Shown: positions 6,292 to 11,786 of the stretch, one piece after another
Position numbering within the stretch: position 1 is the first letter of the stretch
Layout of the letters: each line of letters opens with the position of its first letter
DNA from: an uncultured Ignavibacteria bacterium
GTDB taxonomy: Bacteria > Bacteroidota > Ignavibacteria > Tepidaquicellales > OLB5
Assembly: GCA_937873695.1 (NCBI GenBank)
Contig: CALMYL010000017.1
Location: 207,214-271,213 of the forward strand
Length of the DNA stretch: 64,000 bases
Direction: 5' to 3'
Made by a program: the position numbers and the translations under genes
The notes under the pieces: model-generated
Databases searched by the model: none
Seen by the model: only the letters and a program-made list of their open reading frames with translations
What the model was told of the DNA's origin: nothing

Positions 6292-6320
6292 TATTGATAG
6301 AAATAAATACACTTAATCCC

Positions 6321-6344
6321 GTTGTTGGTGTTGTCACCAACAAC
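6321..6344. repeat. 24-base palindrome, copy 1 (GTTGTTGGTG family)
   Basis: GTTGTTGGTG (6321-6330), loop TTGT, CACCAACAAC (6335-6344), preceded by CCC. An almost identical copy with loop TTGC lies at 10416-10439 in the same orientation. It lacks a T-run, so it is not a standard terminator. Its twin sits beyond rsgA and the A+T-rich island. Confidence 0.85.
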
Positions 6345-6371
6345 AGAAATGCAAGAAAATAAACTAAATTA

Positions 6372-7451
6372 TTGAATAAAAAACACGATTTAAAACAATA
6401 CGGGTGGAATGATTTTTTTGAAGCGTATTTTGCTGAATATGCTGCAAAAGGTCTGCTTGCCGCAAGAGTAGCGGTTGAACACAGAAATTATTACGAGCTG
6501 TATTCCGAATTTGGCGAACTTACCGCGGAAAAATCAGGCAAGCTGTTTTACAGTACAGATGATTCCAATTTACTGCCTGCAGTAGGTGACTGGGTCGTTT
6601 TTAAACACATGCCGGATGAAAACAAAGCGTTCATTACCGATGTGCTGCCGCGGAAAACGAAGTTTTCCCGCAAGAAGGCAGGCTCAACCACAGAAGAACA
6701 AATTGTAGCAGCAAATGTTGATACGGTGTTCATTATCAGCTCGCTGAACCAGGATCTCAACATGCGCCGTATGGAGCGTTACATGGCTTTGGCATGGGAT
6801 AACAATGTGAAGCCCGTTGTACTGCTAAGCAAAGCTGACCTGTGTGAGGATGTTTTTGCAAAACTTATTGAAGTTCAGCAGCGCTTCGCGGGGGTTGATG
6901 TACACATTGTAAGCGCGCTGCAGAAAGCGGGAATTGATGAGCTGCTGAAATACTTTGAGGGTAACCAAACAATTGCCGTCATAGGTTCATCAGGTGTGGG
7001 TAAATCAACCCTGATAAACAGCATGCTTGACTGGGAAAAGATGAATGTATCAGAAATAGGGCTATACAAAGATAAGGGCAGGCATACAACAACTCACCGC
7101 GAATTAACACTGGTGCCGGGCGGGGGACTCATTATAGACACCCCCGGTATGCGTGAAATACAGATGTGGGAAGGCGCTGAGGGTCTGAGCGAACTGTTTG
7201 AGGATATTGAGAAACTGGTCATTGAGTGCAAATTTTCTGACTGCAAGCATGAATCCGAGCCCGGCTGCGCCGTTAAAGGCGCCATTGAACGAGGTGAGCT
7301 TGATGAGGGTAGATTCAGAAGCTACAAAAAGCTTTTGAGCGAAGTAAGCTATTTTGAGCGCAAGCAGGATAAAAAAGCGCAGCTTGAAGAAAAGAAAAAA
7401 TGGAAGAAGATCTCTCAGCTTGGTAAGCAGATAGGGAAGGAAAAGAGATGA
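6372..7451 (+). CDS. rsgA: Ribosome small subunit-dependent GTPase A
   Basis: RsgA (YjeQ) is a circularly permuted GTPase that helps mature the 30S ribosomal subunit. The order is diagnostic: an N-terminal OB-fold (GDWVVFK near residue 73), then G4 SKAD (about 153), G1 GSSGVGKST (205-213), G3 DTPG (256-259), and finally the cysteine/histidine zinc domain (IECKFSDCKHESEPGC, about 285-300). The length of 359 is usual. The start is a TTG at 6372. The last 40 residues are a lysine-rich tail; the matching DNA occurs again in decayed form at 8333-8374, behind an inserted gene. Confidence 0.96.
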   Translation: MNKKHDLKQYGWNDFFEAYFAEYAAKGLLAARVAVEHRNYYELYSEFGELTAEKSGKLFYSTDDSNLLPAVGDWVVFKHMPDENKAFITDVLPRKTKFSRKKAGSTTEEQIVAANVDTVFIISSLNQDLNMRRMERYMALAWDNNVKPVVLLSKADLCEDVFAKLIEVQQRFAGVDVHIVSALQKAGIDELLKYFEGNQTIAVIGSSGVGKSTLINSMLDWEKMNVSEIGLYKDKGRHTTTHRELTLVPGGGLIIDTPGMREIQMWEGAEGLSELFEDIEKLVIECKFSDCKHESEPGCAVKGAIERGELDEGRFRSYKKLLSEVSYFERKQDKKAQLEEKKKWKKISQLGKQIGKEKR

Positions 7452-7464
7452 TATTTGGTGTATA

Positions 7465-8280
7465 ATGAATAATCAAAAAAAAATATGTTATTTATGTGGG
7501 ATCGAAATTCAAGAAGTTGATGAAGCTAACAATGACCATGTAGTTTCAAGTTTGTTTTTTGAAAAAGAACAACCAAAACAACTTGGAAGAGATTACTATG
7601 GAAAACTTGAAGTTCATAAAGACTGCAATGAACTTTGGGGTGGAAATAAAGCAAAGATGGAAGATGTTGTATTAAAGGCATTAAAACTACTACATGTAAA
7701 GAATAATGTCCCTAAAGGTGAATACAAAGGGAAAAAAATAGTACTTTTCGAAAAGAAAGATATTTTATTCCTGGATAATGAAGACAGGAAATTCTTCGGA
7801 TTTATTGATATGAGGAAAAAGGATTATAGTGAGATTTCAAGCGGCAAAGTTTTCAACGAAAACAAACCAAGTAATCAGTTTGAAAAAGCAGGTGATATTG
7901 CAATAAGTGTTTTATGTAAGAATGCAGCAGCAATTTTAATTAGAAAGAACTTAGTTTTTGAAAAACATTTTTGGCGTATTTTGGTTGTACCAATATTTGA
8001 TCCGGATAAATCTATCAAAAATGATTTAAATCTCAGAAAAATAGGAAAAGAACTTGAATATTCCTACGAAGTTAAAACATATGGAAATTATGTTTTTATA
8101 TTCAGTTATCTTTCGACAACTGTAGTTATAGGCTTTACTGATTTTATGGATTATTCAATAATAAATGATTTTGAAAGTTTATTCAAAAAAAATAATTATC
8201 CCATATACTTTTTTGAGGGTTCAAAACTAAATGATTTAATTGGATATAAATGGATACAAAATATATTTAGGATCAAATAA
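7465..8280 (+). CDS. HNH-like zinc protein (island gene 1)
   Basis: A 271-residue protein of unknown function. Its N-terminus has an HNH-like treble-clef pattern: CYLCG (residues 9-13), NDHVVSSLFF (about 23-32) and HKDCNELWGGNKAKMED (about 51-67), giving Cys-Cys, Asp-His and His-Cys-Asn in the expected order. The rest is predicted mixed alpha/beta and unrecognised, with no signal peptide or membrane segment. The gene starts 13 bases after rsgA, is more A+T-rich than its neighbours, and is followed by a decayed copy of the rsgA 3' end, so it looks acquired. A DNA or RNA nuclease is likely from the motif; activity is inference. Confidence 0.7.
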   Translation: MNNQKKICYLCGIEIQEVDEANNDHVVSSLFFEKEQPKQLGRDYYGKLEVHKDCNELWGGNKAKMEDVVLKALKLLHVKNNVPKGEYKGKKIVLFEKKDILFLDNEDRKFFGFIDMRKKDYSEISSGKVFNENKPSNQFEKAGDIAISVLCKNAAAILIRKNLVFEKHFWRILVVPIFDPDKSIKNDLNLRKIGKELEYSYEVKTYGNYVFIFSYLSTTVVIGFTDFMDYSIINDFESLFKKNNYPIYFFEGSKLNDLIGYKWIQNIFRIK

Positions 8281-8332
8281 TCAACAGGCATGGTAAACCT
8301 TGGCTTATTGCGCCGGCTTTCGCAGCTAACAT

Positions 8333-8374
8333 AAGCAGTAAAAAAGCCCAGCTTGACGAAAGGAATGGAAGAAA
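8333..8374 (+). pseudogene. Decayed second copy of the rsgA 3' end
   Basis: Bases 8333-8374 (AAGCAGTAAAAAAGC, CAGCTTGA, ATGGAAGAA) align with rsgA bases 7362-7408 (AAGCAGGATAAAAAAGC, CAGCTTGA, ATGGAAGAA) with small deletions and substitutions. No reading frame is kept. The 52 bases just before it are G+C-richer than the island genes. The simplest reading is that the HNH-like gene entered at the end of rsgA and left a duplicated target end, or that a longer rsgA tail was displaced and decayed. Confidence 0.6.
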
Positions 8375-8422
8375 CTGACAATTTACAAAAAAAGAGGAGA
8401 AGTAAAAGAATAATCTAAAACT

Positions 8423-9565
8423 ATGAAAAAACATTTTGTTGTTTCAGCTAAATTTGATTTACCATTTTATTTAAGATTGCCATCAAATAGATTTTTGTCA
8501 TATGATGAAAAGCATAAGATTTGTGTTATAATTCCTTTGCAAAGACTTGGAGAGAAAATATTTAATAAGAAAACTAAATTAGCTGAAGAACAAGAATTAT
8601 TGGATGATCCACAAATACACGAATTAACAACACGTAAGATTTTGGGATATGATTATAAAGTAGTAAGTGATTATAATGATAAACAAATTACTACATTGGA
8701 AACAAGAATCCAGGAAAATGGAGGCTTTACTCAATTACAAGCCTATACTGAGATAACTATGTTTATTTATGTCTTAAACGAAAATCCAAAATCAGAGGAC
8801 ATTAAAAAAAGGCTGTTTGCGAATCTAAATCACTTCCTTAAAATTTATAAACTAGTAACTCAGGATCCATTTATAACTAAAATTGATAAAGAATTAAACC
8901 TCTATTATGTTGATTGGGGCATCGGGAAAATTAAAGAAACTGCAAAAGATCAGGATGTTAATGAGATTTTATGGCTTAAGGATGTTATATTTAGTAGTCA
9001 AATAGGAGAGGATAGAGGAATTCAACTTCAAACAAATTCTATTGAAGATTTGTATCCGGGTTCAATGCTCGATCAAGAATATCTTCAAATATTTGCTAAT
9101 AGTATCCTTGGAGAATACGAATTACCACTTTTTTATGATTTGATATTGGAAGCTCAAAGACAACTAAAATTTAGAAATTTTCATATAGCAATAATTGAGG
9201 CTCAAAGTGCTTTTGAATCATATACATCACAACTATTGACAACTTTTTTTAAAAGGGAAGGCTTAAGCCTTGAACAAATTGCTAATTTCTTTCAAGATAA
9301 CATGTTTCATAAAAGATTAAAAATTTTGGATGGACATATAGCCAACTACAAGAATTTAAGAGGGGAATTGTATAATAATTTTATTAATAGCAATTTGTAT
9401 TTAGAGTGGAAAGAGGATTTATATAGGTTGAGAAATAAAATTGTTCATGAAGGTTTTAGAGAAATTGATTTTGAATCAACAAGAGATGCAATTAGTATTA
9501 CTAAAGATGTGATATTCCATTTTGAAAAAACGTTACCTGAATTTAGTAATACTGTTCAGATATAA
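8423..9565 (+). CDS. HEPN-like domain protein (island gene 2)
   Basis: A 380-residue protein. The C-terminal part (about residues 235-370) is all-helical and holds RNKIVH (337-342), an Rx4H motif as in HEPN-family RNases, preceded by the AIIEAQSAFE helix (257-266) usual in such domains. The N-terminal 230 residues are mixed alpha/beta and not recognised. There is no signal peptide and no membrane segment. It lies between two HNH-like genes in an A+T-rich block. HEPN proteins of this kind often act in toxin-antitoxin or antiphage defence as ribonucleases; here that is inference from the motif and the neighbours. No MNT nucleotidyltransferase partner is adjacent. Confidence 0.6.
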   Translation: MKKHFVVSAKFDLPFYLRLPSNRFLSYDEKHKICVIIPLQRLGEKIFNKKTKLAEEQELLDDPQIHELTTRKILGYDYKVVSDYNDKQITTLETRIQENGGFTQLQAYTEITMFIYVLNENPKSEDIKKRLFANLNHFLKIYKLVTQDPFITKIDKELNLYYVDWGIGKIKETAKDQDVNEILWLKDVIFSSQIGEDRGIQLQTNSIEDLYPGSMLDQEYLQIFANSILGEYELPLFYDLILEAQRQLKFRNFHIAIIEAQSAFESYTSQLLTTFFKREGLSLEQIANFFQDNMFHKRLKILDGHIANYKNLRGELYNNFINSNLYLEWKEDLYRLRNKIVHEGFREIDFESTRDAISITKDVIFHFEKTLPEFSNTVQI

Positions 9566-9651
9566 CCAGGTATCGAGTTTATAAAGAATACTGCTGGGCG
9601 AATTATTTTTTGACATTTTGGTAAAAGTAATAGTAAAAAATACAGTTCAAA

Positions 9652-10356
9652 ATGGTAAATAATAGTTTGTGCTATTTTTGTGGTAGAAAAGCAACTTCGG
9701 TAGACCATGTCCCACCCCAAAATCTATTTCCGTCAAACATGCGGAATCAATTAATCACAGTTCCTTCGTGTAAAAAGCATAATGAAGATTATCATTTGAT
9801 TGATGATCGAGTAAAAATCTATATACAAGGAAATTCCAGTAGCAAAATTGCTTATGATTTGTTTATTGCGAAAACTCAAAAGGGATTGAATAGACCACAA
9901 AGCAAGCATTTTGCTAATAGTCTTATTGAAGAGGCCATATTTTATAAATTGGGCTCATCTCAAATTATTGATATGAATGTCGAGAAGAAAAAACTAGATT
10001 TATATTTTGAGAAAATATCCAAGGGTTTATATTATTTTCATTATGAAAAGATTGCAATTGGTAGGATGTATTATTTCTTTGCACCATACACACCCAAAGA
10101 ACACTATAAATATCAAGTAGCGCTCTATCATTTTAAGAGATTGATAAACAGTAACTTAATTTTTGAAGGAAATTGTCATAATCCAGATATATTTTTTTAC
10201 CATTATGGTATTATAAAAGATCATTTTTATTTAAAGATAAGATTTTATAAGGACGTAGAAGTATTAATTATTTTTAAGTTAGAAACTAGAATACAATATT
10301 ATAAAAATAATTTGTTACAAACATTGACTAAAATATGGAAAAAGGCAGGTCATTGA
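9652..10356 (+). CDS. HNH-like zinc protein (island gene 3)
   Basis: A 234-residue protein whose first 60 residues form an HNH-like site: CYFCG (7-11), SVDHVPPQNLFP (16-27), and LITVPSCKKHNEDYHLIDD (about 34-52), with Cys-Cys, Asp-His and Cys-His-Asn in order. This pattern is common in small uncharacterised HNH proteins. The remaining 170 residues are rich in aromatic and basic residues and unrecognised. It differs from the HNH gene at 7465 outside the zinc site, so the two are not simple duplicates. It ends in a terminator that overlaps its stop codon. Nuclease activity is inferred only. Confidence 0.65.
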   Translation: MVNNSLCYFCGRKATSVDHVPPQNLFPSNMRNQLITVPSCKKHNEDYHLIDDRVKIYIQGNSSSKIAYDLFIAKTQKGLNRPQSKHFANSLIEEAIFYKLGSSQIIDMNVEKKKLDLYFEKISKGLYYFHYEKIAIGRMYYFFAPYTPKEHYKYQVALYHFKRLINSNLIFEGNCHNPDIFFYHYGIIKDHFYLKIRFYKDVEVLIIFKLETRIQYYKNNLLQTLTKIWKKAGH

Positions 10357-10367
10357 CCTACCTTTTT
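10341..10367 (+). terminator. Terminator overlapping the island gene 3 stop codon
   Basis: AAAGG-C-AGGT (10341-10350), loop CATTG, ACCT-A-CCTTT (10356-10365) with one mismatch, followed by further T residues. It ends the island transcript. Confidence 0.75.
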
Positions 10368-10380
10368 AATTGTTCCGGTG

Positions 10381-10404
10381 GTGTCGGGTCCTGCGACCCG
10401 ACAC
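10381..10404. repeat. 24-base palindrome (GTGTCGGGTC family)
   Basis: GTGTCGGGTC (10381-10390), loop CTGC, GACCCGACAC (10395-10404). It has the same 10-4-10 build as the palindromes at 6321 and 10416 but different arms, and no T-run. Confidence 0.8.
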
Positions 10405-10415
10405 GAACTTACCCC

Positions 10416-10439
10416 GTTGTTGGTGTTGCCACCAACAAC
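10416..10439. repeat. 24-base palindrome, copy 2 (GTTGTTGGTG family)
   Basis: GTTGTTGGTG (10416-10425), loop TTGC, CACCAACAAC (10430-10439), preceded by CCC as in the copy at 6321. The two copies differ only at the last loop base and bracket rsgA plus the three island genes. Confidence 0.85.
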
Positions 10440-10448
10440 ATTATCTAA

Positions 10449-11786
10449 TCAATTCGTCCTCTTTGATCTATCCTGATTCCCATCATCGTACAAACCGTTT
10501 ACCTCATATACAACACCAAGCGCATCTTTCACAAATTTTATCCTGAAGTATTCAAGATCTTTGAACATGAATGTATCTTCGGTCATTGGTGTCATCGCAT
10601 ATTTCTGCCTGCCTTTGCGCTGGTAATACAGTCTGCCGCCTTCGTACGTGATGGTCCTGTCGTCGTAAGTGCCCGCGTAATTCTTTAATGTAGTTTCATC
10701 TACTGTGGGAGCGTTTAATACGGCGTTCAATGATTCAACCATCCACCTGTAAGTGTTTGTCTGCTGTTCATCCTTTGACTTTTCCGCAAGCTTTTCGAGT
10801 GCAAGTATCTGCGCCTTCTCAAGCGCAAGCTCTGATTTTATGTTTACATCGGGGGCTACACCAACACCTTCCCAGTTTGTTTTAGTTATCGGACTTATCG
10901 CTCTGCCATTGGGCACAAAGATGGCAAACCCTTCATTTATTGCCCTAACTCCGCCCGGGTGCGCGCCTCCGCCGGTTGTTTCGCCAACGATTGTTGCGCG
11001 CTTAAGGTTCTTTAAGTTATAAGAAAATTCTTCTGCGCCCGAAAATGTGAACTTGCTGGTGAGTACATAAACCGGCACATCAGGCAATCTTTTGCCGTCG
11101 ATTTTGCGCAGCGTCCAATATTCCTTGGTTTCATCAGTGGGCCTGTAATACAGGTCATTTAAATGAACAGGTGTTTCTGTAAAAAGGTAACTGCAAATTA
11201 ACTGAACTCCCGCAGGGTCGCCGCCGCCATTCATTCGCAGGTCAAATATTATTGCATCAGTGTTTTCAAGGAATTTCATAACTGATGCAACTGTCTCTTT
11301 TGAATAATCAGGTGAAGCGAAATTCCTGAAATCAACGTAACCGATGTTGCCCGGCAGTCTTTCCACTTTTTTGAATCCGTAGTTTTCCTTCTTCATCATT
11401 TCATTCCAGTGTTTTTCATCATCCGGATCACTGCCCTTTTTTTCCTGCTCCATAAGCCGCTTCGCGTCCTCGGGTGAAAATCTAACACGTATGTGTTTAT
11501 CATTGCTTACTGACTGCAGATCGGCAGTTAATGTTTCGGCAAACTTCATCGGGTCATCAATGCCATCGTAATTGCCTGCGGCAAGATTTTGTTTGATGAG
11601 GTCGCCCATTTTCTTTGCAAGATCGGGGAAGATGTAATTCTCATCCAGCAGATTAGATATCTTTTTAACGGTCTGCTGCTTTACTTTAGAATCAAAAGTA
11701 AAATTGACTGGCTCCTGCTGTGCAAATGATATCTTTGCAGCTATCATGAATCCGATAAATAGGATGAATATCTTTAATTTAAGCAT
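10449..11786 (-). CDS. Secreted S41-family peptidase
   Basis: A 445-residue exported serine protease of the C-terminal processing (S41) family. The first 22 residues are a Sec signal peptide ending near FAQQ. An N-terminal helical domain of the interphotoreceptor-retinoid-binding/tricorn type follows (DENYIFPDLAKKM near 47-60). The catalytic domain shows IIFDLRMNGGGDP (about 180-192) and the nucleophile serine in FTFSGAEEF (about 247-255), then ATIVGETTGGGAHPGG with the usual glycine-rich strand. No PDZ domain is evident. The C-terminal 90 residues are a beta-rich extension. AAGGAG lies at proper distance before the ATG. It likely cleaves peptides in the periplasm or at the surface. Confidence 0.88.
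   Translation of the reverse strand: MLKLKIFILFIGFMIAAKISFAQQEPVNFTFDSKVKQQTVKKISNLLDENYIFPDLAKKMGDLIKQNLAAGNYDGIDDPMKFAETLTADLQSVSNDKHIRVRFSPEDAKRLMEQEKKGSDPDDEKHWNEMMKKENYGFKKVERLPGNIGYVDFRNFASPDYSKETVASVMKFLENTDAIIFDLRMNGGGDPAGVQLICSYLFTETPVHLNDLYYRPTDETKEYWTLRKIDGKRLPDVPVYVLTSKFTFSGAEEFSYNLKNLKRATIVGETTGGGAHPGGVRAINEGFAIFVPNGRAISPITKTNWEGVGVAPDVNIKSELALEKAQILALEKLAEKSKDEQQTNTYRWMVESLNAVLNAPTVDETTLKNYAGTYDDRTITYEGGRLYYQRKGRQKYAMTPMTEDTFMFKDLEYFRIKFVKDALGVVYEVNGLYDDGNQDRSKRTN

Follow-up and report, generated by a model that had tools for sequence, protein, structure and literature searches.

At the 3' end of rsgA, the window (the whole 64-kb stretch of DNA analysed here) carries an island of three genes that is probably acquired accessory cargo: independently useful nuclease genes that would have arrived in at least two steps, and not a co-evolved three-gene system. 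The insertion appears clean and recent, with ten empty sites in related genomes, and as it stands its content is accessory cargo of known kinds.

Position and origin of the island

The island lies between rsgA (6372–7451, plus strand), which encodes a ribosome biogenesis GTPase, and an S41-type peptidase gene on the minus strand (10449–11786). Its three open reading frames are all intact and all on the plus strand: gene 1 (7465–8280; 271 aa) encodes an orphan with an HNH/treble-clef-like site at its N terminus, gene 2 (8423–9565; 380 aa) a HEPN-like protein whose N-terminal part is unassigned, and gene 3 (9652–10356; 234 aa) an HNH family member akin to HNH_5 (PF14279). The first-pass annotation had described three consecutive A+T-rich plus-strand genes with nuclease motifs, and both parts of that description hold. 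The genes have G+C contents of 0.275, 0.279 and 0.281, or 28% compared with 38–45% in the flanks (rsgA, the S41 peptidase gene, a MarR/GNAT gene and typA), and a GC3 of 0.19–0.24 compared with 0.36–0.48 in the neighbouring genes; the named motifs, HNH-like in genes 1 and 3 and RNKIVH in gene 2, are all present. No other 3 kb of the window has a GC content as low as the island's, and the two 1.5-kb blocks of the island rank lowest.

To place the insertion, we relied on the rsgA locus of related genomes, rsgA being detected in 13 of the 15 genomes of the family. In all ten same-genus loci with readable sequence downstream of rsgA, the S41 gene follows 83–529 bp after rsgA with no gene between them. 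Two loci from other genera (G296 and G297) were left out of this count, having no S41 match downstream in the fetched stretch; in G296 rsgA is followed directly by an M3 peptidase gene, and the stretch fetched from G297 is short. As rsgA and the S41 gene adjoin without the island in ten congener loci, the island is a lineage-specific insertion, and a horizontal acquisition is supported by these ten empty sites. The left edge can be put at the rsgA stop codon because rsgA of the window ends in KEKR*, compared with KEKRE* or KEKRK* in most congeners, and the right edge near 10371 because similarity to the empty site of the congener G300 restarts there, giving an insertion of about 7449–10371 (~2.9 kb). 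Beyond it lies a spacer with a palindrome (10372–10448); the empty site of G300 shares this spacer. Neither an integrase nor a transposase, intron or intein was found in the island, and no Rfam RNA in its region.

The order of arrival is suggested by two short stretches. Between genes 1 and 2 lies a decayed second copy of the rsgA 3' end (8333–8413, plus strand), a short, gapped remnant that reads KKAQLDE and then, past a small deletion, EWKKLTIYKKRGEVKE* (blastn E 5e-6); because this tail separates genes 1 and 2, it suggests a stepwise arrival. A hairpin terminator (AAAAAGGCAGGTCATTGACCTACCTTTTT; 10339–10367, plus strand) overlaps the stop codon of gene 3 and resembles the hairpin that lies behind rsgA in G302 and G306, both more distantly related congeners, its pattern occurring at only three places in the genome. 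On a simple reading of these stretches, genes 2 and 3 would have entered between the rsgA tail and its terminator, and gene 1 would represent a separate event.

Several repeats were seen around the island. Near-identical 28-bp copies of the palindromic repeat GTTGTTGGTGTTGNCACCAACAAC at 6318–6345 and 10413–10440 flank the block of rsgA and island; this direct repeat was rejected as an element end, as the palindrome occurs at nine places in the genome and recurs, diverged and carrying an insert, at the same spot of the G300 empty site. The core of a second palindrome, GTGTCGGGTCCTGCGACCCGACAC (10381–10404), occurs exactly once in the genome, and versions of it are found in the rsgA–S41 spacer of several congeners, sometimes twice. 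At one congener locus (L042, from G301), a tandem pair of S41 peptidase genes follows rsgA.

Nuclease features of the three genes

The HNH site of gene 3 (9670–9783, plus strand) consists of C7-x2-C10, D18-H19 and C40-x2-H43-N44, followed by D51. The residues C7, C10, H19, C40 and N44 show no variation across 17 aligned homologues, and D51 almost none. The underlying treble-clef zinc/HNH pattern, C..C-x-[DE]H-x-[CH]..[CH]N, arose in about 1 in 50,000 shuffles of gene 3 (a chance of about 2e-5) and is present in 1 of the 36 window ORFs of at least 250 aa. Gene 3 itself has no Pfam match, no usable match in PADLOC, NCBIfam or PDB, and only weak HNH matches in PHROGs (E 0.02–0.26), so that its link to curated HNH families runs through its relatives: 4 of the 17 family members match HNH_5 (best E 7e-6) and 3 match HNH (PF01844). 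The proposed assignment of gene 3 as an HNH protein is thus supported by its family, which has the C-x2-C, [DE]H and C-x2-[CH]-N elements of HNH_5 and HNH. The family differs from both in its length of ~230 aa and its unnamed C-terminal domain with a conserved PPK-x-FP and a KSxDDEY-like stretch; KS..DEY is absent from gene 3, the D51 region excepted.

Within the phylum, homologues of gene 3 turned up in 7 other genomes when 296 were sampled and, by profile, in 12 other genomes when 395 were sampled; they are also present in 13 plasmid records and 10 viral contigs, sometimes near integrases or transposases. Gene 3 therefore looks like a member of a widespread, single-gene family of HNH cargo, hitherto unnamed, that can be placed on plasmids, prophages and integron cassettes. 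The cassette copy is a homologue on a Vibrio plasmid (L036) in a gene array with repeated attC-like spacers. PF14279 and PF01844 endonucleases are among the common functions of integron cassettes (PMC7370490), which the Vibrio homologue resembles; the window island, in contrast, has no attC-like site by pattern search, and an integron origin of the island was rejected.

The call of gene 2 as a HEPN protein draws on its RNKIVH motif (R337–H342; 9431–9448, plus strand), which is weak when taken alone, Rx4-6H occurring in 15% of gene 2 shuffles and in 3 of 36 long window ORFs. The two relatives found, both haloarchaeal and ~23–25% identical, are encoded on a Halalkalicoccus plasmid (by tblastn) and in Natronococcus (by profile scan). 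The motif gains weight because R337, N338, H342, E343 and G344 are invariant in both; so is an upstream acidic residue, E265. Gene 2 also fits the description of the HEPN RNase motif as Rx4-6H with a polar residue after the arginine (PMC3710099). Searches of Pfam, PADLOC, NCBIfam, PHROGs and PDB gave no usable match for it. AlphaFold models, run without deep alignments, had pLDDT values of 34–36 and yielded no confident fold; that of gene 2 (mean pLDDT 36) did show a helical C-terminus. Alignment to ApeA-type HEPN domains from the phylum brought both motif elements, E265 and R337–H342, into register, with a weak score that was reached by 2 of 100 column shuffles. The hhalign probability for the HEPN fold of gene 2 was 1.7%. 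A Swt1-like HEPN aligned at the motif only, and hhalign against one Ymh-type HEPN gave nothing.

Gene 2 is best called a probable HEPN ribonuclease on the strength of the conserved motif and the predicted helical C-terminus. It is most like the ApeA-like branch of the HEPN superfamily (PF18739; PMC3710099), with which it shares a predicted C-terminal helical domain, the upstream E265, the R-N-x3-H arrangement and an additional N-terminal domain, whereas it lacks a Pfam match and is shorter (380 aa compared with 409–496 aa in the ApeA-type proteins of this analysis). Gene 2 adds a HEPN-like family that spans one bacterium and haloarchaea and is in no current library.

Gene 1 can be described as HNH-like by its motif only. 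Its site (C8-x2-C11, D24-H25 and H51-x2-C54-N55; 7486–7629, plus strand) follows the same treble-clef pattern, which appeared in none of 50,000 shuffles, and the first 40 residues give a weak local match to the gene 3 profile. The C-x2-C/DHV/H-x2-C-N pattern noted at first pass is therefore well beyond chance. No relative in which its conservation could be seen turned up among the 296 genomes or in plasmids, phages, GTDB contigs and IMG/VR, and Pfam, PADLOC, NCBIfam, PHROGs and PDB gave no usable match.

Joint or separate function of the genes

We next considered whether any of these genes belong together, using 33 fetched loci of gene 3 homologues (318 kb). Genes 1 and 2 were absent from all 33 by tblastn and profile, and neither profile nor pattern revealed an HNH neighbour beside the two relatives of gene 2. 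A HEPN-type gene, however, lies near the gene 3 homologue in about 4 of the 33 loci: a HEPN_Swt1 protein 7 bp downstream in L054, a DUF4145 protein directly downstream in L058, a Hypoth_Ymh protein with RNPKAH directly downstream in L083, and, one gene away in L051, a zinc-ribbon protein with RNTELH that belongs to the same run. Both Ymh and DUF4145 are HEPN domains (PMC3710099), and neighbours with DUF5677 (L076, L077 and L083) were left out of this count. These neighbourhoods are a weaker signal of a link between HNH and HEPN proteins, which we treat as a lead only.

Genes 2 and 3, on the same strand and 86 bp apart, could accordingly be read as a two-part system in which a nuclease of the gene 3 family cuts DNA and an exchangeable HEPN partner cuts RNA. 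We regard this as unlikely, as most gene 3 homologues have unrelated neighbours, and the integron-cassette copy argues for a stand-alone function. HEPN genes are, moreover, common in accessory regions. It is quite doubtful that the gene 3 family is the fixed component of an undescribed defence pair with an exchangeable HEPN ribonuclease as its partner and gene 2 as a new HEPN family; were the pairing true, it would represent a new kind of defence built on two nucleases.

That the HNH genes bring the host no benefit, being instead selfish endonucleases of the homing type or remnants of a mobile element, is very unlikely. The occurrence of gene 3 homologues on plasmids and phages, some of them near integrases or transposases, would suit such an origin, as would the insertion site directly behind a conserved gene; the island, however, is free of integrase, transposase, intron and intein, gene 3 is intact and of the length typical of its family, and the cassette copy implies cargo. 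Least probable of all is the first-pass proposal that genes 1, 2 and 3 form one uncharacterised defence or nuclease module, which their low GC, single strand, short gaps and single terminator after gene 3 would favour, since the trio was never met again in any collection searched, gene 1 has no relatives and the decayed rsgA tail at the junction of genes 1 and 2 points to stepwise insertion.

Under the preferred reading of the island as separately acquired cargo, the genes would be useful independently of one another. Gene 3 would encode a stand-alone HNH-type nuclease, probably metal-dependent and DNA-cutting, whose C-terminal domain may select the target. Gene 2 would probably encode a HEPN ribonuclease that serves as a single-gene effector of abortive infection. 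Its N-terminal part would be a sensor or inhibitor, and R337, N338 and H342, together with E265, would form a metal-independent RNA-cutting site on dimerisation; gene 1 would supply a second HNH-like protein. Transcripts reading through from rsgA would end at the terminator behind gene 3. Nuclease genes of the HNH and HEPN kinds are often used against phages, and the island genes are probably protective against phages or plasmids. Models of known anti-phage systems in PADLOC did not match the island proteins (best E 0.42).

Two other kinds of gene recur at the homologous loci. DUF2971 adjoins the gene 2 relative on the Halalkalicoccus plasmid (L026, 5203–6018), and DUF2971 likewise adjoins a gene 3 homologue on an Aliarcobacter plasmid (L028, 4827–6510). 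DUF5677 proteins are encoded beside three gene 3 homologues on the same strand (L076, 4012–4842; L077, 3832–4749; and L083, 5488–6258), and two of these three homologues are in viral contigs.
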